DNA from: Gryganskiella cystojenkinii
Taxonomy: Eukaryota > Mortierellomycota > Mortierellomycetes > Mortierellales > Mortierellaceae
DNA length: 17,803 nt
NCBI GenBank assembly: GCA_015852425.1
Contig: JAAAIG010000719.1
Span: 2,166-19,968, forward strand
Direction: 5' to 3'
Below the pieces are notes generated by a model, which saw only the letters and a program-made list of their open reading frames with translations, searched no databases and was not told where the DNA came from. The translations under genes and the position numbers were made by a program. Within the stretch, counting starts at the first letter, position 1. Each line of letters opens with the position of its first letter. Shown in pieces: positions 383-17,803 of this stretch.

Positions 383-2958
383 ATGAACTTCCAAGGCATC
401 AGAGGACGACTCGTTGGTCAACTGCGTCACAGCCATATCGCCGCTGCAACAAATCCCTTCGAACGGCGTGCACTCGCATTCACAAAGGAACAAGCTCGCC
501 AAGCTCAACTTCGACTCAGCAATGCGCGATCAACCGAGGCTATTGAGGTGATCCTTCCAGACGGATCGCGCAAGGCGGGAACTGCTCGGACAACTACCCC
601 ATTGGAAATCGCTCAAGGTATGGGGCCAAGTCGACACAATATTTTTCATAGCCGATTCGAGTCTATCATTGAATCGCGCTCATTAATCCATTTACACACT
701 TTTTTTAGGCATCTCGGGAAAACTGGCCAAGACCACGCTAATCGCCCAACTGAACGGAAACACGTATTGGGATATGACCCGACCTCTGGATCACTCCTGT
801 CAACTGGAATTGATCCCGTTCCAGGAGAACAACGATCGCCTGACAAACCTTTTTTGGCATTCTTCTGCTCACGTTCTTGGCATGTCCCTGGAAGCCAAGT
901 ATGGATCCCGGCTTTTGCTCTGTGATGGACCAGCAATCAAGCAAGGAGGATTCTTTTACGAGTTTTTGTTGATGAAGGAAGGACAGGATCCCACAAAGCC
1001 ACTGCCAACGGTCAAGGAACTTTTGGAGCAAAACTATCCCTCCTATCAGTTTTCAAAAGACGAGATCACAGAGATTCAACAGATCATGACAAAATTTATC
1101 TCACAACGACTTCCCTTCGAACGACTCTCAGTCTCTCAAGAGTTTGCCTACGACCTCTTTCCGGAAAACAGGTTTAAGCAACATTTCATCGGAAACATCC
1201 CCAAGGACAGCGAGATTACTTTATACAAGTGTGGGCCTTTTGTGGATCTATGCCGCGGTCCTCATGTCCAACATACTGGCCAACTTCAAGCCATGGAGAT
1301 CCTTCGTACCTCCAATGCCTATTTCATGCCCGAGCTGGATCGCGACCCGAAATCACCACAGGCTTTGACAAGGATGTATGGAATTGCCTTCCCCTCTGCC
1401 AAGGAATTGAAGCAATGGCATCACCAAAAGAACGAGGCCGAGAAGAGAGATCACCGTGTCATCGGCAGAAATCAAGGACTGTTCGCTGTTCACCCTGCTA
1501 GTCCTGGATCGGCATTCATGCTGCCTCACGGAACCCGTATAGTCGAGCGATTGATGCGATTTATGAGACAACAGTATCGGAAATACGGATTTGAAGAGGT
1601 CATGACACCTCTAATGTACAAGAAAGAGCTCTGGGAGACTTCGGGACACTGGCAAAACTATAAGGACGACATGTTCCAGGTCATGAGGGGATGCGATCAT
1701 CACGGTCATGGTCACGATCATAGTCAAGGATCCGAGCAAAAGGAAGGCGAACAAAAACCCTTGGCAGAGGGACACGACGAGGTTTTTGGCTTAAAGCCCA
1801 TGAACTGCCCCGGACACTGCTTGATATTCGACATGTCCAATCGGTCCTATAAAGATCTTCCCATCCGCTACGCTGATTTCAGTGCTCTTCACAGGTAACC
1901 AATTTAAAGCGAGCTTAATTACGACTAAGGGATTATCACTTATACCTTGAGAAGGCTAATTCTCGATCATGTCTGCTCATATCGCTGATAGAAACGAATC
2001 GACGGGATCATTGACAGGACTGACTCGTGTTCGCCGGTTCCATCAGGATGATGCTCACATCTTTTGCACAAGGAACCAAATCTTTGACGAGATCAAGTCC
2101 ACGCTGTCTTTTGTCGACACGGTCTACCGTACGTTCAGGTTCCCCAGTTATGAACTTGCGCTTTCGACCCGCCCTCTGACCAACTTTATGGGATCGATTC
2201 AGGAATGGAACTCTGCCGAGGATGCTCTTCGTCAAGCTTTGGATCAGTCTGGCATGGATTGGTCCATTAATGAGGGCGACGGTGCTTTTTACGGTCCCAA
2301 GATTGATATTCTCGTCCGAGATGCCCTTGGAAGGAGACACCAGACTGCGACTATTCAACTCGACTTTCAGTTACCCCAACGGTTTGGTCTACAATTTTAT
2401 GACCAACAAGGAGAGAAACAATCGCCCGTGATTGTTCACAGAGCTGTCTTGGGAAGTGTCGAGCGTATGATGGCGATCTTGATTGAACATACAGGAGGTC
2501 GTTGGCCGTTCTGGATCTCGCCTCGTCAAGCCATGGTTATCCCGGTTTTCGGAGGCAAAGCTGGCGATGTCACAGAGGAACAGGCTAACACCGAGGACAA
2601 AATGGGCATGTCGTTGACCGAGTATGCTCATCATGTCAAGGAGACCCTGGCCAAGGCAGGACGGGCACCTAAGTCTTCATCAGCTGGATCAGTACTGATT
2701 TCTCCAGAGGAAAGGGATCCGGTTGTGCGCATGGATGACAAACACTACTTTGTGGATCTGGACCAATCTGGAGGTACACTCAACAAGATGGTCCGCGATG
2801 CTCAGGTTGCTCAGTACAACTTTATCGTGGTGATTGGTGAGAAGGAGAAGGAGACTGGAACAGTCAACGTCCGTACCCGAGAGGGTGAAAGGTTGGGTCA
2901 GATGACGATACCAGAGCTGCTGAAGGTGTTCCAGGAACGAGAAAACCAGTTCTTGTAG
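383..2958 (+). CDS. Threonyl-tRNA synthetase, probably mitochondrial or dual-targeted (3 exons)
   Basis: This enzyme charges tRNA-Thr with threonine. The model is exons 383-617, 709-1894 and 1992-2958, with introns 618-708 and 1895-1991 (both GT...AG, phases 1 and 2). It gives 795 residues. ATG383 is the first in-frame ATG after a stop at 374-376. Residues 1-50 are rich in Arg and Ala with few acids, like a mitochondrial leader. A TGS domain follows (about 53-113), then the editing domain with HSSAH (129-133) and CRGPH (Cys260, His264). The class II catalytic core has the zinc ligands Cys445 (in MNCPGH), His496 (in DDAH) and His623 (in VHRA). The anticodon-binding domain is about 643-795. Insertions stand out: a His-rich stretch near 409-437 and two in the anticodon domain (about 660-682 and 696-725). 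All key residues are present, so it should be active and able to edit. The architecture fits yeast THS1 or animal TARS2, not the shorter yeast MST1. The family is certain; the compartment is inferred. Confidence 0.95.
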
Positions 2959-3101: not shown

Positions 3102-5056
3102 TCAATATGAGTGGTAATACAAGACTCTACCCTCCTTGCCCGAGACCTTGCAAAATCGATTCACAGTCTCGGCTGGCATACGCATCATTCTGTTCTTCGC
3201 AGGCGAGATTTGGGCCTTAACAGGAGTGGTATGAATTTTCAAGTGAAATGCGCTTGTTCATCCTTCGCAGTGGAATCGATTGAGTTGCCAAACCTGACAC
3301 AGACATCCCAGTTGTTCTCCATAATAGTCTGCGCCGAAGGTCACAAAGTTCAGGATCAGCATCAAAGCAAATAAAGACAACAGCAGCAAATAAACACGCC
3401 TTGATTGTAAGACAAATCTTCAAATGCAAAAGCAACATGGCAAGATAAACATCTCGACGGACATGATACTTGTCCTGGAACACCTTCTCCACCAGATACT
3501 CAATTCCTGTTTAGTATGCTGACGATGTAAACATCATAGCCTGGAATAGAGTAAGCGCATCATCAAATTGTATATTAGTCGATGCTAAAAAAATATAAAG
3601 ATAACTTACCAAACACAATGACGCAGACAATCTTGTAGCCCTTGGCAATTTCGAAGGAACCGGACGCATTGTAAATTCTTTCCAATCAGGCATCTCTGGC
3701 GCACCATGTTTTTTCTTCGTCGTCCTTGTGTTTTGAATGGTTGGTACAGACCGATATTCTCGAAAAGCGTGTCCACGTATTCATCCTTGCGAGGAAGTAC
3801 GCATCCACATTTGTACCTTTCGACGACTGCGCGAGCAGAAGGCCCAAAATGGTTTTCATTGATGAGACCTTGCACGCCGGTCTGGAGAGCGAAGAAATCT
3901 GGAGAGACCCAAAACGAGGGGTCCTCCTTCGTTGCTCCCTTCTTTGAAATTGATTGTATTTGTTACGTCGTTGAGCACTCCATAACCGCCTCCTATTATT
4001 GAAATAAGTTATCTGTAAAAAAATACTCAAAAACGTTAATCTCTACTTTATCCATCGCCTCAATAACAAATATCCTCTATAGTCTATACCATCACAAACT
4101 TGCCGCATACTTGATGAGGGACCATCGACTCCTCTCCGTAATATACGTCCTCGGTATAGAACTTCTTGGACTGCATACTCTGAAGTCCAAATGCGATCTC
4201 GTCCTACACGAACCCCATAAAAAAAAAAGAAACACAAAACATGCATCAAACTATATTAGTAGAACGTGCCGATCCTTCACTTCCGAATCCTAAACGGAAA
4301 AAAATAAACATGCCTTACCTCTTCCTCCTCCAAATCGAAAAAAAATATATCTCCGGCAATGCCATCTGTATCCAAAACCAGCAACAGCTGGAATATAAGT
4401 CAAAGAAAAAAAGAACAAGGACCGACACTGACCTTGGCAGCCGGGAGTTTTCTGTGCCGCTCAAGTGGAGGATCATTCATGTCATCCTCATCGTCCAGAT
4501 GTCGATCGTCTTGAGCTTCATCGGAAACATCACCGTCATCATTCTCTTCGTTTTCATCGCGGATCTGCTCACGACCCTTTCTCGCTACTCCAGCCTAAAG
4601 TTGGAGGGCCTACAATAACAAAAGGCAGCAAAAGGACGGTCAGGTCATTTTCATTACCGCTTTTCTATTAGGCTCTTTCAAATAAAAGCCTACACAGGTA
4701 CAATACCGTTTTTGAAAACGTCTTCGGGCTGCCCTTGTTTTTGCCAGTAAGTACTGGTACGACCACCTGCGCCTACCGTACAAAAAACGAGGTGTATGTG
4801 TTTTCATCGGCATTCGGGTTGAGTCTTGTGCGTAGGAGTTCAGCCTAAGGAAGATAACAGTAACAACAACGATCCTTAACTTATTGCACTTGTAACAGCA
4901 AGATATATACCGAAGAAGAGCGGGCAGTTACCTATCATACAAAAGATCGTGAATCCGATCTTCTTGGAAACGAGTCTATCTTATCTCAGCTATCGTCAAT
5001 TTTGGTCGATGTCCTTGGCCTTGAACCATTTGCTGGTATCGTCGTAGGTCCCTGTT
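3102..5056 (-). pseudogene. Decayed multi-exon eukaryotic gene of unknown family
   Basis: On the minus strand, coding-like blocks are bounded by splice sites in matching phase: 4844-4707, 4594-4433, 4387-4319 and 4203-4090 (46, 54, 23 and 38 codons, all phase 0), then 3992-3610 and a block starting at 3540. Candidate introns of 45 and 115 bases separate the 4594, 4387 and 4203 blocks with GT...AG ends. A further fragment lies at 5051-4996, followed by a hydrophobic frame at 4980-4876. The 4594 block is strongly acidic, with runs of Asp and Glu. Lesions include in-frame stops at 4773-4775, 3963-3965, 3686-3688 and 3500-3502, and frame changes near the A-run at 3731-3734 and near 3237-3242. The last open frame ends at 3102. 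I do not recognise the protein. The pattern argues for a host-type gene with introns that lost function, or for errors in the assembly. It converges on the synthetase gene. Confidence 0.55.
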
Positions 5057-5293
5057 TATCTCACGGAAAGTCGCGGAGACATCGACATGTCGAAAGACGG
5101 CATCGAGACTATGAAAAGATTGAGAGGTAAAAGCCATGAGTTATTGTAGAGTCAGTGGAGCAGTTGTTCACAAACAAGACGTAAAGAGGATCTCACTTAC
5201 TCTACTAGAGGGTAATAAATAATTATAATAACAGTCATGAGAGCAACAACCCTACAAAGAGTGAACAGGCTTTAATTGTCAAACATCGAGGTG

Positions 5294-5587
5294 CTAGGGC
5301 CTACGAAACTGTCTAGGCGTAACGATGACCGACCACCATACCACGCTCCGGCTGCACGGGCGGCCCAACGTACGTCTACATGTTTTGGCGACGATACCCA
5401 TGTGGATTGTATAGGTAATTACCGTCCAGATATTATAGGTGGGTGTAGAACCGAAAACTATCGCAACGGCAAGAAGAAATCCCCCAGCGGAGACTGCTGT
5501 TTGGCCGATTACAACTATAAAGGCACCTGCATCAACAACTTCATCTGCGAGGCTTAAACCCCATCCACACGTTGAGATAACCAGCAT
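5294..5587 (-). CDS. Short hypothetical protein with two predicted membrane segments
   Basis: The open frame starts at an internal ATG at 5587 and gives 97 residues. The same frame is open further upstream, but there it overlaps the zinc-ribbon frame, so this Met is the likelier start. A long hydrophobic stretch covers residues about 19-46. A second, weaker one covers about 51-66, followed by a basic Arg-rich and Cys-containing tail. This suggests a small membrane protein. There is no recognisable family. It lies 67 bases downstream of the zinc-ribbon ORF, on the same strand. The opposite strand also has an open frame here, at 5276-5557 (93 codons, Cys-rich), which could be the real one. Short membrane proteins like this are common in large DNA viruses, but that is only context. 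Confidence 0.3.
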   Translation of the reverse strand: MLVISTCGWGLSLADEVVDAGAFIVVIGQTAVSAGGFLLAVAIVFGSTPTYNIWTVITYTIHMGIVAKTCRRTLGRPCSRSVVWWSVIVTPRQFRRP

Positions 5588-5654
5588 CGGATATATCGGC
5601 GGAGGAAACGTTAACGCAATCTCGGGGAGAGGTTCGCAAGTTTTAAAAACATGT

Positions 5655-5978
5655 TCAAGGGTCTCTGATAGAGTGAGATATGTTGGCACACTTGACAAGA
5701 TCCGCGAACACCTTGAGAGAATACGGCATTTCCTTAACCTTTGGTGACTCCTCGCTGCCACATCTGTGACACGAACGCTCTGATGTGGGAAAATCTCCAC
5801 AGGCACTACAAACGGGTACCATACTCCAGTTGCTCTGTGCGATGGTGTCCATAAGTACTCTGCTCGCATCATGAATATAGCTATGGATGAGATGCAGGAG
5901 ACTCTCTACAATGTAATATCTGTGAGTGTCGGGATGGAAGATGAGATAACAAGCCTGAAAAAAGAGGGCGACGAGCGA
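5655..5978 (-). pseudogene. C-terminal fragment resembling RNA polymerase second-largest subunit (Rpb2-type zinc ribbon)
   Basis: The frame is open from 5978 (after a stop at 5979-5981) to the stop at 5655-5657, 107 codons, with an internal ATG at 5852. Counting from that Met, four cysteines form CSAC (15 and 18) and CHRC (28 and 31). The stretch MPYSLKVFADL follows (residues 42-52). In Rpb2 proteins the C-terminal clamp has the same order: a Cys2-Cys2 ribbon, then a conserved PY-x2-K helix near the end. The segment HDASRVLMD just before the ribbon also fits the usual region that precedes it. Full Rpb2 exceeds 1000 residues, so only the last tenth is present. I found no continuation upstream on this strand. 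It may be a truncated viral or host polymerase gene, or a free-standing 65-residue zinc-ribbon protein starting at 5852. Confidence 0.45.
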
Positions 5979-6176
5979 CTAAGGAAGATAGCCCGTATGT
6001 TTGTTATAGATGAACGTGATACACAAGGAATCAGCGGTCTAAATGCGGGTGACTATTTCAAATATCTCACGGGAAGGATGGAGATAAACCTATGTACCTG
6101 TGATAAGAAGCTCGACCCTGATGCCTTGTCTTGGGTAGATAAGAGTTTTTTTAAAAACACGGTCTATCCTCCTTGA
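5871..6176 (+). CDS. Hypothetical 101-residue protein
   Basis: The frame is open from upstream of the ATG at 5871 to a TGA at 6174-6176. Alternative starts are at 5883 and 5892. The product is mixed and slightly acidic, with a charged helical N-terminal half and a CTC motif near residue 77. There is no membrane segment and no family I recognise. It starts 18 bases from the internal ATG of the zinc-ribbon frame, on the other strand, and ends 33 bases before the end of the convergent coiled-coil gene. It overlaps, in antisense, the upstream part of the Rpb2-like frame (5871-5978). So either that frame really begins at 5852, or one of the two is not coding. The even amino-acid composition makes it look like a real protein. 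Confidence 0.4.
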   Translation: MNIAMDEMQETLYNVISVSVGMEDEITSLKKEGDERLRKIARMFVIDERDTQGISGLNAGDYFKYLTGRMEINLCTCDKKLDPDALSWVDKSFFKNTVYPP

Positions 6177-6209
6177 GACTCTCGTTGGATGACATGCGTC
6201 TTACTCTGG

Positions 6210-6785
6210 TCACCCTTGCCCGAAGTGGTCGCTGTCGTTCTTGACTCTGAGATCCTCCAACTTATCCATCATCCTACGGAATTCCGAGTGGTCGTGGGCG
6301 GTCTTGGCCCTGAGAACATCCACACCGTCTCCAAGGGCCATCACGGTAGACATCAGGGCTCCAATTTCCGCCAGAGTACCCCTAGTTAATGCCAACGCCC
6401 CATCAGACACCTCCTGCAGACGATTGTCCACGCTGGCCACATGCTGCTGATAGTACCCCATCACATCGTTCATCCGCGACAAATCTGCGCGCAATTCCGC
6501 ATTCTCAGCCCTTATCTTATGCAGTTCCTCCCGCATATCATCCATCGCGCCCCTTAGGTCATCCTCTGGAGCATCTTGGTTACCCACTAGAATTCGGCGC
6601 TTCATCCTAGACAACTTGCGCTTGTGTTTAGTGGATTTCCCCTCTAACCTTTCCACTCGAGCCTCTAGATCTCGGATGGGTTTTTGGGCCGCCTTCTTTC
6701 GACACTCCTTACAAGTGCCTTCCCCAGTATAGAACTCTAACTTATTCTTAGTGGTCCTACACTTGTTGCATGTCTTGGTTGTCAT
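6210..6785 (-). CDS. Zinc-finger and coiled-coil protein of giant-virus or phage style
   Basis: This single uninterrupted frame of 191 residues starts at the ATG at 6785. The N-terminus has CNKC (6-9) and CKEC (25-28), with the aromatic FY between the pairs. That layout is typical of short CxxC...CxxC fingers in phage and large DNA virus proteins, often next to nuclease or structural domains. Basic linkers follow (about 30-72). A long coiled coil covers about 83-125, with regular Leu, Met and Glu spacing, and a second helical stretch covers about 140-185. No catalytic domain is visible. It probably binds nucleic acid or protein and forms oligomers, but its role is unknown. The frame has no introns, in contrast to the host genes around it. 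It is convergent with the 101-residue ORF. A host gene of unknown type remains possible. Confidence 0.7.
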   Translation of the reverse strand: MTTKTCNKCRTTKNKLEFYTGEGTCKECRKKAAQKPIRDLEARVERLEGKSTKHKRKLSRMKRRILVGNQDAPEDDLRGAMDDMREELHKIRAENAELRADLSRMNDVMGYYQQHVASVDNRLQEVSDGALALTRGTLAEIGALMSTVMALGDGVDVLRAKTAHDHSEFRRMMDKLEDLRVKNDSDHFGQG

Positions 6786-8027
6786 CGTCCAGAAATCTAG
6801 TTCAAGGATTAATCACGAAGATGGTCCTCTGTAAATCGCCCATGTCAAGAAGGTAATGGAAAGGTGCTTTTCAGTCAGGGTATTAAGAAATAGGAAAATA
6901 CCTACTGATGGCAAAATGCAGAGACGTGAGCGCGAGAATGGACGTAGCGAAGGTGTTAATTGATGAAGAGAAAGGAAAGCGCAAAAGAGAAAGGAAAGTG
7001 CAAATGAGAGAGACGTACAGGTGCCACTAAAATGTTTGAACCCTTTTCCTGTTGTGCCTCGGTTGCAAAGCAAGACGAGGTGACTGGGTTCAGAGCCTTG
7101 CAAAGAAAGCAAAGTCGATTTTTGGTGGCAATTCTATGCTCATCGATAAGTTTGAGCAGCGTTTGATGAGTTCAACCTGGTCACATCATTGTTCTGCTTG
7201 AGAGAGACGCATGAGCTTTTCCTGTCTTTCGATCCGGAGCTTCCAGGTCCTAATATTGTATTTTCCGGGCATCTTGGGCTTCGACATCTGGTGTTGGAGT
7301 TTGTGCCCCATTTTCTGCGTCCCGAAAAAATAAAAGTAAAAGGTCCTCCTCTTTCTTCCGCTTCTGATTGCCACATGTGGCCCCACTGGCATTCGATTTT
7401 TCAGTAAAGAAATGGGTGGAATTTACATGGCTGAGAGTGTAGTGTCTGGAGTATGAGTAGCCATGTTGGTCCACTGGCTCTTAGTCCCCTTGGTTCTTCC
7501 CCTCCCCTTGGATGAAAAAAAAAAACATTCGACTCTGCAAATGGGAACCATATTTGAGAGAGGAGTGATCCCTGATTCCCGATCGCCCCAAAGATAGAAT
7601 TGTTCCTTCTTTTTAATGTTCCCTGTATGTTGTCACTGTTCCTGAAGTCGCTTCTCCTTCCTCCCTCGGAACCCTTTTTCTGGGGATCGAATCCATTTCT
7701 GTTTCTTGTGTGCACTCAATACTCATAAGGGACTACATCCTGATTCTATTTTTTCATTGTGACAAAGAAAAAAGAGGAGTGATGGACAAAGACAAATATT
7801 ATTTTCTCGTTGATATCATTTACCGAGTCTACGAAAGCGAGGCAAAAAGAAAAAAAATACCAATTAACCAGCCATCCAACACGCCGAAGACGATAGTTAG
7901 ACTTGAGAAGGGGAAGGGAAGGATTGACGCTGAGCTCCACGGCCAACTTGTTTGTTCAGTTGAAGGTTTTTTGTTTTAGTGCGCGTTCTACTCGCGTTTT
8001 TTGGGCTTGAATTTTTCACGCCCTTGA

Positions 8028-9959: not shown

Positions 9960-12900
9960 ATGCCTGGTGCTCCTGCGAAGGTTGAGCGATATGTGCCATG
10001 GGATCCCAGACAGACCGCGGTCGACTCTGCTCCACTAGTGTGTCCTCTCTACAGTGGCCATCTTTTAAAACTTGGATCCAATGATCGTTGGCAATCTCGA
10101 CTCTTCACCTTTGACGGATCAGGTAAAAATTGGCGCCCCCTGCAGCATCTCACGGGAAAACACGTAACCAATGTTCCCCTCTTTTCTTACAAACAATTTT
10201 GTTTACTGTTTGCTTATGCTATCTATTTACTAGTTCTGGCGTGCGTGGGCAAGAAGCCCAAGGCGCCTGTCATCATGACCTACGATCCTTACGTCTCCTC
10301 TCCGTTCATGTCCCCAGCCTGTAACAACACCCCACATCACCCCTTGAACCCAAACACGAAATGGTTCATCAACCTTCAATCCATCACGGCTATCAAACTC
10401 TTGCCCTCGTTTCGGTTCTTCCGGTGTTTCCCTTCCAAGGATGGGGCCAAGGCCCTGTCGATCCAGACGTCGGACGGCAGAAAACTTTTACTCAGGGCGA
10501 CCAAGGACGTGGAATTGGAACGATGGTATTTTGTGCTCTCGAAAATTTGGGAGTATCAGATGCAACTCGGTCCTAGAGCTGTTGCAGGAGGTGAACGAGG
10601 GGTGAGTGGAGACGGTATTGGTGCTGGTGGTGAAAGAGGGGTAGGAGAAGGGGCAGGAGACATTGACTCTGGAACAGGTGCGACTGGTGGTAAGGTGGAG
10701 TCAGTGAAAGGAGCGCGACATCTTACAGCACATCAACAATCCGCTCAACTGTTTCAAAAGTACCTGAAGAAGCAATACCACCAAGATGGGCAGGCACCTC
10801 TTGGTGTCGAGCAACAACAACCCCAACAAGAGAAACATCAACAGAAGCAGCGCCCTCAACCTCAACCTCAACAACAACCGCAACAGCAACCGCAGCAACA
10901 ACAACAGCCATCAAAACAGTCGTATTACCACTTGCGCCCGATCCAGAAACAACGACCACGCGAGAGCTTTCTCCGGTACCAGATCCCGCCACCGCCAAGG
11001 GTCTCAGCTTTTCTTCCACAGGGGTTCGACTGGTCCTTGCAAGAGCAAGGCGATGAAGACGACTTGTTGATGCTTGGATCTCCTGCTTTTTTACATCAGC
11101 AAGAGTCCCAGTCTCTGACAAACGAGCGTGAACGGCGTCCTTTGGAAAGACAGCAGACCTGGAATCATCCACAACAACAACAGCAACAACAGCAAGATAA
11201 ACAACAACAATTACAGCAATCACAATCCGCTACGGGTGATCTGATTCGTTCGTCATCCGCCGGAATGGTGCCCCAGATACCTCAGAAACGTCGCGTTGTA
11301 CCAGCTTCGAGTTCCATGGAACCCGGAAAAGCCGCCATTATCGACAACTGGCGTCGTAGCCTGCTCTGCCCTCCTGTGTTAGATGGAACCTCTTCGACCA
11401 TTCCAGCAACCGAAAATGATCAACACAAGTCCAAAATATTGGATGGTGGTGATCAAAACCGGATGACGGTCGACGATCCCACGTTCGACCTGGATGATCA
11501 TCGAACAGACAGTCGCGATCTAGAATCAACCCTGAAACATTCCTCTCTCGGTCTGGAGTACGGTCTTACGTTAGCAGAGAACCCGAGCGCCGTCTCAAAC
11601 GACCCCCGATGGTATTCTAGTAAGAAGGAAAGGCACACAAGGGGTAGCTTTTCGAGTGAAGAGAGCTCTGCCAAAGACCAAGGGCATCTCTATGGTCGTG
11701 AATCTAGAACTTATCAGGGTCATCAGCGGTACAGTCACTTACCGGGTCTGGATCGGTCTGGAGACCGTCGAGAAGGACACCACCAACAACGCCACCGTCA
11801 GAGCACTCATTTGTCAGCAACAGCGACAGCAGTACCGACAGCGAACACCGACAACAACAATGGTATCACGCAAGCAGGTCGGGAGGAGGACGAGCTCCCC
11901 CTTGGAATTCTGCAAATGAACCGTCACTCCCGGTGGCTCAACACACAACTGTCTTCTGAAGACGGAGCCTCCAGGATTAACGGGGAGACAGTGACAGCTT
12001 CGATCACTCGTCAGTCGTCGAAAACAACACCGTTACCGATATCAACATCAATTGAATCGCTCCATCCTCATCAACAACTCCAACAACAACAACCTCCACA
12101 CCGTCATACACTCCTACCCTCGGAACCAATTACACCAAAACAGTCCTCGAATGCCATGAAGACCTCGGCGACCGCCGCCCCGTCGCACTCTCAGGGTGGG
12201 ATATCGCAGGACCGGCCTTCCTCCTCCTTGGTGGGGGAAGAGGTAACCCAAATGACGACACCCTCGTTCTCAAATCCCACGCTTAGTTTCCATGGATCGA
12301 GTTATTCTCATCTCCCGATCAACGACCCGGACTTTGTCTTTGCGTCGTCCTTGAGCATTAATAACAACAATGATCCCAGTCGTCCTTCTACATCGAGCTC
12401 ATCGTATTCGTCTTCGGACGCCATATGGGCTACAAGCATGGCGCACAATAGCGCACATGTTGCTTCCGCGCTGACTTCTGCGCCCATGCATACAGGTTCT
12501 GTGCCCTCTACTACGCCTTCGAGAGCCCTGCACCGATGCCCAAGCGTCCCTCTTCCCTCTAGCAGCAGTATTAACATCCCACAAATGACGAACACCACCA
12601 CCATCAATGGTGCCGATGCCTCCAAGAAATATTTGGTCATCGACACGAGTCCTTACTCGAACGATATCGATGTCGGTAACCCTAACCACAACCCAAAGCC
12701 TCTTCAAAGACAGGTTCGCCCCGCCGGTGCGTTAATGAACTCTTTAAACTCGCCCGAGGATGAAGAGATCCCTTCCTTGGCGGTGTCGCAGCCGCAATCC
12801 CAATCATCCACGCAACCGACCTCGGTCCCCACATCGACCACCTATAACAAACATCAACAACGTTCTTCTCGATCCAGCGCCCATTTCCCTCAACCGGGGT

Positions 12901-13217
12901 CGAAATCGAGTAGCTCGAGCAGTCTTTTGCGACCAAACTCGATGATGGTCAGTAATCCGATCCCGATCGTGACGCCTAAGGATTTGATGAGAAGAGATAT
13001 GGATGAGCTTGAAAAACAAGAACAAGAAGAGGATGATGAGCCCTTGGCGGTGACGCTTTCTCGTCAACAGAGTTGGAAACATCGTCAGTCCCAGTACTCG
13101 AACCATCGGCTGAGCCATCACCACAACAAATCATCTAATGAGCAGCAGCAACAGCAGCAGCAACAACAGCGACAGTTGACCAAGGGTGATTCTATTGAAA
13201 GCTTTAGTTACTTTTAG
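9960..13217 (+). CDS. PH-domain protein with long glutamine- and serine-rich regions
   Basis: ATG9960 follows an A-run with A at -3, a good fungal start. I place one intron at 10123-10233 (GTAAAA...CTAG, 111 bases). Removing it joins the strands around RLFTFDGS and VLACVGKK in a proper PH-domain order and gives 1048 residues; left in, the frame stays open at 1085. The PH domain covers about residues 30-163 after splicing. It has an insertion of about 30 residues between early strands and ends in a helix containing ERWYFVLSKIW. The rest is low complexity: a Gly-rich stretch near 10590-10680, Gln-rich blocks, Ser/Thr-rich regions and a C-terminal Gln run before the end. PH domains often bind phosphoinositides or proteins at membranes, so a membrane or signalling adaptor is plausible. 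No catalytic domain is visible. Confidence 0.85.
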   Translation: MPGAPAKVERYVPWDPRQTAVDSAPLVCPLYSGHLLKLGSNDRWQSRLFTFDGSGKNWRPLQHLTGKHVTNVPLFSYKQFCLLFAYAIYLLVLACVGKKPKAPVIMTYDPYVSSPFMSPACNNTPHHPLNPNTKWFINLQSITAIKLLPSFRFFRCFPSKDGAKALSIQTSDGRKLLLRATKDVELERWYFVLSKIWEYQMQLGPRAVAGGERGVSGDGIGAGGERGVGEGAGDIDSGTGATGGKVESVKGARHLTAHQQSAQLFQKYLKKQYHQDGQAPLGVEQQQPQQEKHQQKQRPQPQPQQQPQQQPQQQQQPSKQSYYHLRPIQKQRPRESFLRYQIPPPPRVSAFLPQGFDWSLQEQGDEDDLLMLGSPAFLHQQESQSLTNERERRPLERQQTWNHPQQQQQQQQDKQQQLQQSQSATGDLIRSSSAGMVPQIPQKRRVVPASSSMEPGKAAIIDNWRRSLLCPPVLDGTSSTIPATENDQHKSKILDGGDQNRMTVDDPTFDLDDHRTDSRDLESTLKHSSLGLEYGLTLAENPSAVSNDPRWYSSKKERHTRGSFSSEESSAKDQGHLYGRESRTYQGHQRYSHLPGLDRSGDRREGHHQQRHRQSTHLSATATAVPTANTDNNNGITQAGREEDELPLGILQMNRHSRWLNTQLSSEDGASRINGETVTASITRQSSKTTPLPISTSIESLHPHQQLQQQQPPHRHTLLPSEPITPKQSSNAMKTSATAAPSHSQGGISQDRPSSSLVGEEVTQMTTPSFSNPTLSFHGSSYSHLPINDPDFVFASSLSINNNNDPSRPSTSSSSYSSSDAIWATSMAHNSAHVASALTSAPMHTGSVPSTTPSRALHRCPSVPLPSSSSINIPQMTNTTTINGADASKKYLVIDTSPYSNDIDVGNPNHNPKPLQRQVRPAGALMNSLNSPEDEEIPSLAVSQPQSQSSTQPTSVPTSTTYNKHQQRSSRSSAHFPQPGSKSSSSSSLLRPNSMMVSNPIPIVTPKDLMRRDMDELEKQEQEEDDEPLAVTLSRQQSWKHRQSQYSNHRLSHHHNKSSNEQQQQQQQQQRQLTKGDSIESFSYF
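10123..10233 (+). other. Phase-1 intron of the PH-domain gene, stop-free and a multiple of three
   Basis: The donor is GTAAAA and the acceptor TTTACTAG. The 111 bases contain no in-frame stop, so retention would add 37 residues with a hydrophobic stretch in the middle of the PH domain. Splicing is inferred from the domain layout. Confidence 0.75.
10811..10919 (+). repeat. Glutamine-codon repeat, PH-domain gene
   Basis: CAA and CAG codons, mixed with CCG, CCA and CCT, encode a Gln/Pro-rich tract. Mixed codon use suggests it is kept at protein level rather than being a pure microsatellite. Confidence 0.8.
11171..11223 (+). repeat. Glutamine-codon repeat, second block
   Basis: CAA and CAG codons encode a short poly-Gln tract, interrupted by Asp, Lys and Leu. 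Confidence 0.75.
13142..13172 (+). repeat. Glutamine-codon repeat near the C-terminus
   Basis: CAG and CAA codons encode a run of nine Gln, about 15 residues before the end of the protein. Confidence 0.8.
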
Positions 13218-15885: not shown

Positions 15886-17803
15886 CTATGAGGAAGAAAA
15901 GGTAGGAGGGATGATGGACGAGATGGCTGAAGGGGCTGTAGTCGTCGAAGAAGACGACGATAATGATGACGACGACGAAGATGCCGATGAGGACAGCGAG
16001 TTTTGGTTCCCCTTGTCCAGGTTATCTCTCTCGAGGTTCTCCTTGATATATTCGTACGCGAACAGGTAGCCGACACCTCCAGGGATTGACGCCATCAGTT
16101 TAGGTGCCATACCCTTAAAGAAGCCTCGCACGCCTTCTTCCTTTGCGATTAACTTTGCCATGGCCCACCAACCCTTCTTCAGCTGATCAGCTTGTTCCTT
16201 ATGAACGCCATCCAAGAGCTGTAAACGAACACGGACCATATCGAACGGACTTGAGACTCCCAGTCCCCAGATCGAGGCGTGGAAAGCGGAAAGAGTGATA
16301 ATCAAGTTGGTGTTCTGTGAGAGTTGGTTTTTTGCATAAAAGCCGTCCGGGTTGTTGGCGGCGAGTTGCTGACGTTCCTTGGCGGAAAAGTAATTGAAGA
16401 GGAGCTTCTTTGTGGCTTCGTAGCCGGCCCAGTGAGCGACCGAGGATGGCGTGTAGGCCATGAGAGTTGCGGCGAATCCTTGGTAGTAGCCGCGGATACC
16501 CTCTGTCCTGTAGATCGACTTGAAAATGTCTTTGATAATAAAGATAATTGCAGGAAATTGTAAGTAAAGTATTTTTTCCATGATCGCATATGCTTGTCGC
16601 CATGAAGATCGCTGTGTTTTGTCGACGCGATCGCTAGTCCTCTTTTCTTCTTTACCTATGCTGGTTAGATGCGCTCGTCCCTTGGACTCGGACTGGACAC
16701 GTAACCGTTGAGAGATGATGTCTGTGGGTACGTAGAGACAGGCAGAGAACGCCTCGGCCAAAAATCCTGCCGTTCCTGCGACGGCCACTTCTCTCATGGC
16801 GCTGTTCGAATTAGTCCTGTCTGGGAAATTGTGTTCAATGACGGAGGTCGCCTGTTCGTAAACACCGAGGTATACTGCCTGAGCGGGCAACGATGTCAAC
16901 ACTAAACGATAAATCCCAAGCAGAAAAGGGTGTGGATGATTGAGTATCGATGCGCATAGGAGCGCCTTTGGACAACAAGGAGAGGTGGAGCGAGGATGTG
17001 GGCACGAATTGCTACTTACGAAAAGGACCAAGTCCTCGAAACAACTTTGTGGGACCTAAAAAAGAGCAGAAAAAAGGACGCCAATGATGAGTGAAAAAGG
17101 AAATATTTTCGTATTGATCGCTCAAGGTTTCTCTCCAAAAGTTTGATCCGAAGGGATGGGTGTGTGTTCGCCTCATTTCTCGACTGTCATGTTTCCGCAG
17201 TGTCCAGCGTACCTTCTGTACTGGCAATGTCACGCAAGAGTTTGAAGGTCGACTGGGGTTTGTTCTATTCAGCAACAAAAGCAGAGGTGGGGAATGATCA
17301 GGTTTTCATTTCAAAAAAAAATCGAGTTTTCCTGTGACCCTCAGGAGCGTTCCACGGCGCATAAGAGCAAGGTTGCGCGACAAACGTACATCCTTGCTGG
17401 CCTGCATCCTCGTTCTGGCGACCTCCAAAGGCCAAATGACCACGTCTAAACGATGGTCAAAGAAAGTAGGGGTTATTTTCGATTGACAGACGAGAAAAAG
17501 GCATAGGTCCGAGCGTCTCTTCGCCTGCTCTCCCTGCTAGACCCGATCTGATAAGATATGGAAAGCACAGAGGACGCCTGCACGACAAACAGAAAAAGAG
17601 AAATCGATCACCGAAGGACAAAACTGTTGCTGCAGTGATAGAGTGTATTCCAGTGTGGGTCGACATACCGAGGCACATGAAGACACCAGTCCCTTGGAAC
17701 ATGTAGGCAACAACGTTGGCTGGACCCAAGGTGACCTTCTTTTGAAGGGCAGGTTGCGTCGCAGTGTTCTCGACCAGTGCCGTTGTCACTGGATTTGGTA
17801 TAG
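15886..17803 (-). CDS. Mitochondrial carrier protein, SLC25A44-like (5' end beyond the window)
   Basis: This inner-membrane solute carrier has three repeats. Exons on the minus strand are 17803-17669 (incomplete), 17445-17390, 17264-17213, 17055-17020, 16901-16656 and 16529-15886, all with GT...AG introns and matching phases. At least 388 residues are visible. The three carrier signatures are PLEVARTRM, PTDIISQRL and SPFDMVRVR, one per repeat, each following the odd-numbered helix. Two tiny exons (52 and 36 bases) encode the loop of repeat one. The order and spacing, and the PTD form of the second signature, suggest SLC25A44-like proteins, linked to branched-chain amino acid uptake in animals. 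The substrate here is not known. The C-terminus ends in a Ser/Thr-rich tail of about 45 residues that is unusual for carriers. The true start lies upstream of 17803. Confidence 0.9.
16530..16655 (-). other. Phase-1 intron of the carrier gene, stop-free and a multiple of three
   Basis: The donor is GTAAAG and the acceptor ATCAAAG. The 126 bases have no in-frame stop. Splicing gives a second-repeat loop of normal length; retention would add 42 residues, including a hydrophobic stretch. Confidence 0.7.

Follow-up and report, generated by a model that had tools for sequence, protein, structure and literature searches.

Truncated relic of a gene for a divergent second-largest RNA polymerase subunit in Gryganskiella cystojenkinii, possibly left by a large DNA virus or virus-like element not yet described

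Large-virus DNA with genes for both the large and the small subunits of an RNA polymerase has been described in a fungal genome, namely in Rhizophagus irregularis, where an endogenous Asfarviridae-like region of 1.5 Mb is reported (PMC10640383). That region is of megabase size, was judged recent and holds five marker genes (PMC10640383), whereas the locus described here, in Gryganskiella cystojenkinii (Mortierellaceae), takes about 1.5 kb and has one recognisable gene. Nearest to it in sequence are three full-length proteins, P0004 (896 aa), P0005 of Podila clonocystis (869 aa) and P0006 of Linnemannia elongata (883 aa); both named species belong to the Mortierellaceae, and the records of P0005 and P0006 come from fungal assemblies and are annotated as 'DNA-directed RNA polymerase subunit B'. 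Giant-virus Rpb2 proteins (for instance that of Pithovirus LCPAC104, 23% identity by Foldseek) have the fold and the core motifs in common with these three, which, unlike them, lack a block of about 87 columns before the GDK motif. The host's own RPA2, RPB2 and RPC2 share with our relic the zinc ribbon of Rpb2 domain 7, and are separate genes on other contigs.

The whole stretch of DNA that was analysed (the window) comprises 17,803 nucleotides and runs from base 2166 to the last base (19,968) of its contig in the 35-Mb assembly of G. cystojenkinii. The locus is flanked by a threonyl-tRNA synthetase gene, seen as two ORF-exons, on one side and by a 1085-aa ORF on the other, and G+C around it is 0.44-0.50, without a break. 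The features, in window coordinates, are the following.

774..2958 (ORF-exons 774-1898 and 1969-2958), plus strand: left host neighbour, threonyl-tRNA synthetase (Pfam tRNA_SAD, tRNA-synt_2b, HGTP_anticodon)
5294..5872, minus strand: 192-aa open frame, judged an artefact, lying out of frame over the relic
5655..5873, minus strand: truncated relic, the 3' end (72 codons plus stop) of a gene for a divergent second-largest subunit of RNA polymerase, with Rpb2 domain 7
5871..6176, plus strand: 101-aa orphan ORF
6210..6785, minus strand: 191-aa orphan ORF with two N-terminal CxxC pairs and then a coiled coil (the remainder matches coiled-coil families of Pfam)
9960..13217, plus strand: right neighbour, 1085-aa ORF without Pfam match
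15886..16797, minus strand: host mitochondrial carrier gene (Pfam Mito_carr, E 1.8e-34)

The Rpb2-like zinc ribbon pointed out in a preliminary description of this DNA is real. Its ORF on the minus strand covers 5655-5852, and tblastn homology extends over 5873-5658, equal to residues 825-896 of P0004, after which comes the stop; in the alignment the last residue of the window copy is also where P0004 and P0005 end. The ribbon reads C-x2-C-x9-C-x2-C, with all four cysteines of P0004 (846, 849, 859 and 862) kept. A targeted protein search with this piece as query brought P0004, P0005 and P0006 at 76, 74 and 68% identity, with query coverage of 92% and E values from 1.9e-27 to 8.5e-23; such a search depends on shared words (four candidates were scored and three returned), and the relatives number at least three. 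Among the 389 ORFs of the window, an HMM of Rpb2 domain-7 ends, made of 24 sequences (three of the host and 21 of IMG/VR, several being near-duplicates), selects only the relic ORF, with E=2.3e-7. Pfam RNA_pol_Rpb2_7 (PF04560) gives the relic E=1.9e-4 and 22.2 bits, below the cut-off of 32.1, and E 0.033 in the whole-frame scan, and gives P0004-P0006 57.8-61 bits, above that cut-off. In a phmmer comparison of the relic with PDB, the first Rpb2-type chain appears only at E=0.17, ranked under unrelated chains. The match at 1.9e-27 excludes chance for 5655-5873, and we regard the identification of a polymerase relic as firm, with very little room for doubt.

The window copy is cut off at H825 (P0004 numbering), and nothing of the gene upstream of it was found in the window; the broken end coincides with the first ATG (5871) of the plus-strand 101-aa ORF, which lies antisense over it. 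Searches of the window and of the genome found neither a domain 6 catalytic core belonging to the relic nor a complete gene, and neither tblastn nor the Pfam frame scans found any other significant polymerase piece in the window. A genome search with P0004 (10 candidates scored) gave pieces of RPA2, RPB2 and RPC2, on contigs C10, C850 and C574, and, besides these, the relic alone, as a piece of 74 residues; a second copy of the relic or an intact gene of the P0004 type was not found in this genome. Because the three host subunits are found separately on other contigs, the relic represents a fourth type. They are 32-46% identical to P0004 in the matched stretches, and RPB2 is 24% identical to the relic. 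The LG+F+R4 tree joins the window copy to P0004 (97%) within the P0004-P0006 family (100%), apart from RPA2, RPB2 and RPC2; a grouping of the ribbon with one of these three, named beforehand as an argument against a viral source, is thus not what the tree gives.

We call the sequence a relic because it is truncated at H825, is the sole such piece found in the genome and has lost two conserved residues. These are G826, kept in 55 of 56 aligned rows, and D839, kept in all 56; both are conserved throughout the archaeal, viral and P0004-P0006 rows and both are replaced in the window copy. They are two of the 7 residues at which it differs among the 54 that are invariant in P0004-P0006 over the shared 72 columns. 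The protein records of P0004-P0006, which were seen as protein only, look complete, whereas the window has the last 72 residues. The decay is moderate, since the zinc cysteines are kept and the 72 codons hold no stop or frameshift.

Compared pairwise, P0004-P0006 agree at 681 to 721 of 869 columns (78-83% identity), and Pfam recognises in them Rpb2 domains 3, 6 and 7, with domains 1, 2, 4 and 5 falling short of E 0.001. In an alignment of 56 Rpb2/B rows, composed of 53 chosen from 80 candidate ORFs and of these three, 46 columns are invariant throughout, with some of the catalytic core among them. The three proteins are without 271 columns that at least 70% of the remaining 53 rows occupy, the block before GDK being part of this loss, and they depart at 4 of 13 well-conserved domain-7 columns, each of the other 53 rows departing at fewer. 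Among the sequences of solved structures, the best matches of the three are archaeal and Pol II subunits (1.1e-93 and 2.4e-91 for P0004), and 8q3b, an African swine fever virus entry, stands lower at 1.3e-48. A structure model of P0004 with an alignment of only 11 rows was of insufficient quality (pLDDT 38.8), and one with 56 rows reached 68.7; with the P0004 model Foldseek finds giant-virus and cellular subunits alike, at 3.3e-55 and 6.0e-55 in two libraries.

We propose that the relic most likely comes from a large DNA virus or virus-like element of Mortierellaceae, so far undescribed, a fragment of which was endogenised and is decaying; we favour this reading with moderate confidence. A viral or element source is preferred because an extremely divergent fourth subunit, found only as a relic here and recorded at full length from two further named genera, does not sit easily with a normal host gene. 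The earlier suggestion of an endogenised large-virus fragment holds as far as a truncated intergenic relic is concerned, one that is distinct from the host's three polymerases and adjoins an orphan ORF with a phage-type finger; the more specific link to Nucleocytoviricota found no support, and an origin in that group is plausible. Pattern-based scans of IMG/VR gave no relative of the three ORFs and no close relative of full-length P0004, and the relatives found number three, of which two (P0005 and P0006) are Mortierellaceae proteins. Models of the major capsid protein (PF04451) and of VLTF3 (PF04947) detected nothing in this genome and were silent on their controls too, which for the capsid included three IMG/VR records; the Bro-N model (PF02498) likewise detected nothing here and rang on 4 of 14 controls. 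In the literature searched, Mortierella or Mortierellomycota were not mentioned together with NCLDV or Nucleocytoviricota, and co-mentions of Mortierella with giant virus do occur.

Some of our comparisons point mildly to the viral side. When 30 rows were scored pairwise against the relic, the two best scores (Z) belonged to the IMG/VR contigs L030 and L036, above the host subunits; against a viral source, 17 of 22 viral Rpb2 rows scored under host RPC2. A model of viral ends gave the relic 22.0 bits, and one built on the host's three ends gave it 17.4. The third such pointer comes from the C20 tree, where archaea, RPC2 and RPA2 are grouped together without the P0004-P0006 family at 82%, viral sequences and RPB2 being apart from the family at only 34% (12 rows were dropped as near-duplicates or in archaeal thinning, and so were three new short rows, L173, L177 and L179). 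Six of the 30 rows were omitted from the HMMs, L016 as cut off, L033, L034 and L037 as unrelated, and L011 and L025 for an intein-like stretch after GEMERD. In the latter two IMG/VR sequences this departure, which follows GEMERD-C, results in ORFs of over 2000 aa. The viral Rpb2s L174 and L175 are without the C-terminal zinc ribbon cysteines.

The LG+F+R4 tree, which contained 17 viral and 18 archaeal rows (chosen ORFs, the archaeal ones from among the matches listed), P0004-P0006 and the three host genes, placed the family by RPA2, and in both this and the C20 tree its branch is very long, 1.6 to 2.6 substitutions per site. In AU tests, whose trees came from fast searches with 3 of 7 constrained trees scoring above the unconstrained one, and whose row set was reduced by 10 near-duplicates or archaeal rows, union of the family with the viral sequences had p 0.076 and with the viral sequences plus RPB2 p 0.474; union with RPA2 (0.646), archaea (0.608) or RPB2 (0.266) was not rejected either, and rejection fell on an origin from RPC2 (p 0.032) and on a sister relation to L030/L036/L174 (p 0.035). 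A grouping with giant viruses in an Rpb2 tree would have spoken for a viral origin; in our trees and AU tests the family is not united with the viral Rpb2s, and the rivals are allowed too. One further tree was set aside, because its rows L171 and L174 had been placed on columns that failed a check.

It may be suggested alternatively that Mortierellaceae gained or duplicated a fourth, fast-evolving polymerase B subunit as a lineage-specific cellular gene, and that G. cystojenkinii lost its copy in place with the 3' end left over. The high mutual identity of P0004-P0006 over 869 columns, with the core columns kept, looks as it would under selection, a sister position to RPA2 or RPB2 passes the AU test, and the window copy agrees with P0004 at 55 of 72 residues, near to the 57-60 of 72 seen among the full-length proteins themselves, a divergence that is also expected under vertical descent. 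However, the very long branch, the failure to find an intact copy in this genome, the small number of relatives found (at least three), the orphan ORFs that adjoin the relic and the rejection of an RPC2 origin speak against such a gene, and we consider it rather unlikely.

An element other than a giant virus, such as a linear plasmid or a cytoplasmic virus-like element with polymerase subunits of its own, could also have left the relic, and the shortening of the B subunit by so many commonly occupied columns would agree with it. The polymerases of fungal linear plasmids, however, belong to a different, partly fused kind. For P0004 and P0006 the longest contigs have oddly similar lengths, 37,136 and 36,706 bases, and one may speculate that they are whole elements, but the likeness may be chance. 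Yeast cytoplasmic elements are described as encoding non-canonical polymerases (PMC6211774). Taken together, we see a source of this kind as improbable.

Returning to the favoured viral or virus-like source, it would be a foreign DNA genome that encodes a multi-subunit RNA polymerase of its own and belongs to a lineage represented also in the Podila and Linnemannia assemblies. When intact, its B protein would supply half of the polymerase active centre, and the polymerase would presumably transcribe the element's own genes. In an ancestor of G. cystojenkinii a short piece of this genome may have inserted to the right of the threonyl-tRNA synthetase gene, before the right neighbour; of this piece there would remain the 3' end of the polymerase B gene and, provided that the neighbours arrived together, probably the adjoining CxxC/coiled-coil gene; the integrated piece would be decaying and would make no polymerase. 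We may even suggest, tentatively and with the balance somewhat against it, that an undescribed lineage of large DNA viruses or elements is carried by, or infects, the Mortierellaceae; it would have a streamlined multi-subunit polymerase, which is without much of the block before GDK and stands outside the sampled cellular and viral branches, and the window would hold its fossil in a genus now without the element; in the boldest form of this suggestion the full-length copies would be a domesticated fourth nuclear polymerase. A subunit outside Pol I, II and III, at full length in two named Mortierellaceae genera and as a fossil in a third, provides a handle for finding either the virus or a fourth fungal RNA polymerase.

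The neighbours of the relic were described before as a CxxC finger with coiled coil, an unknown ORF and a short two-helix membrane ORF, and the first two are indeed present. The third, the 192-aa frame, we reject as a gene: it lies across the relic, on the strand of the relic but in a different frame, and has the lowest host-codon score of nine sequences (-0.145 bits per codon); the overlap is the main argument, since the relic, which is genuine, has a negative score too (-0.101). The locus therefore offers three candidate features, not four. The CxxC ORF and the 101-aa ORF score 0.073 and 0.042, and the host training exons 0.20-0.22 bits per codon.

The finger had been called phage or giant-virus in style, and it does have a weak PHROG match to endonuclease VII (phrog_1035, E 1.3e-5, residues 1-66 against 61-138 of 271 in the profile), with no relative found in IMG/VR. 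The rest of the ORF has no nuclease domain in Pfam, and 634 candidates yielded no relative except its own gene model. A phage origin was rejected, tblastn giving no match in 50,697 phage records. Judging by its closeness to the relic, the CxxC ORF probably comes from the same foreign source. For the 101-aa ORF no relatives were found (one candidate scored, and the IMG/VR pattern scan) and no second copy, the next match being at E 0.27. That the locus consists of chance ORFs in ordinary intergenic DNA, as the 192-aa frame does and as the low codon scores and lack of found relatives of the two orphans might indicate, is highly improbable, for the polymerase piece is excluded from such a reading, which may then apply to the two orphans alone.

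In 1000 dinucleotide shuffles of 4700-7150, none gave two ORFs of 60 or more aa with a CxxC...CxxC pair, the number observed, and 11 gave at least one; an open frame of 200 or more codons arose in 6, the longest observed frame having 203 codons (the 192-aa artefact) and the CxxC frame 200. A repeat or transposon origin of 4700-7150 was ruled out, as no second copy was found. The public gene model BGZ83_010196 (P0001), window 4084-6605 on the minus strand, has its start within the CxxC ORF, and splicing joins it to five stretches that reach to about 4084, some of them antisense to a plus-strand ORF; it omits the CxxC finger and looks like a spurious fusion. In a short minus-strand frame at about 5000-5050, WFKAKD resembles Bro-N/KilA domains of large DNA viruses; this candidate was rejected, the frame being very short and without Pfam match, and Bro-N not being found in the genome. 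A further open frame at 5276-5557 on the plus strand, for which no Pfam or PHROG match and no second copy was found, has a Cys-rich end (seven Cys in just under 60 residues) and resembles a small secreted protein.
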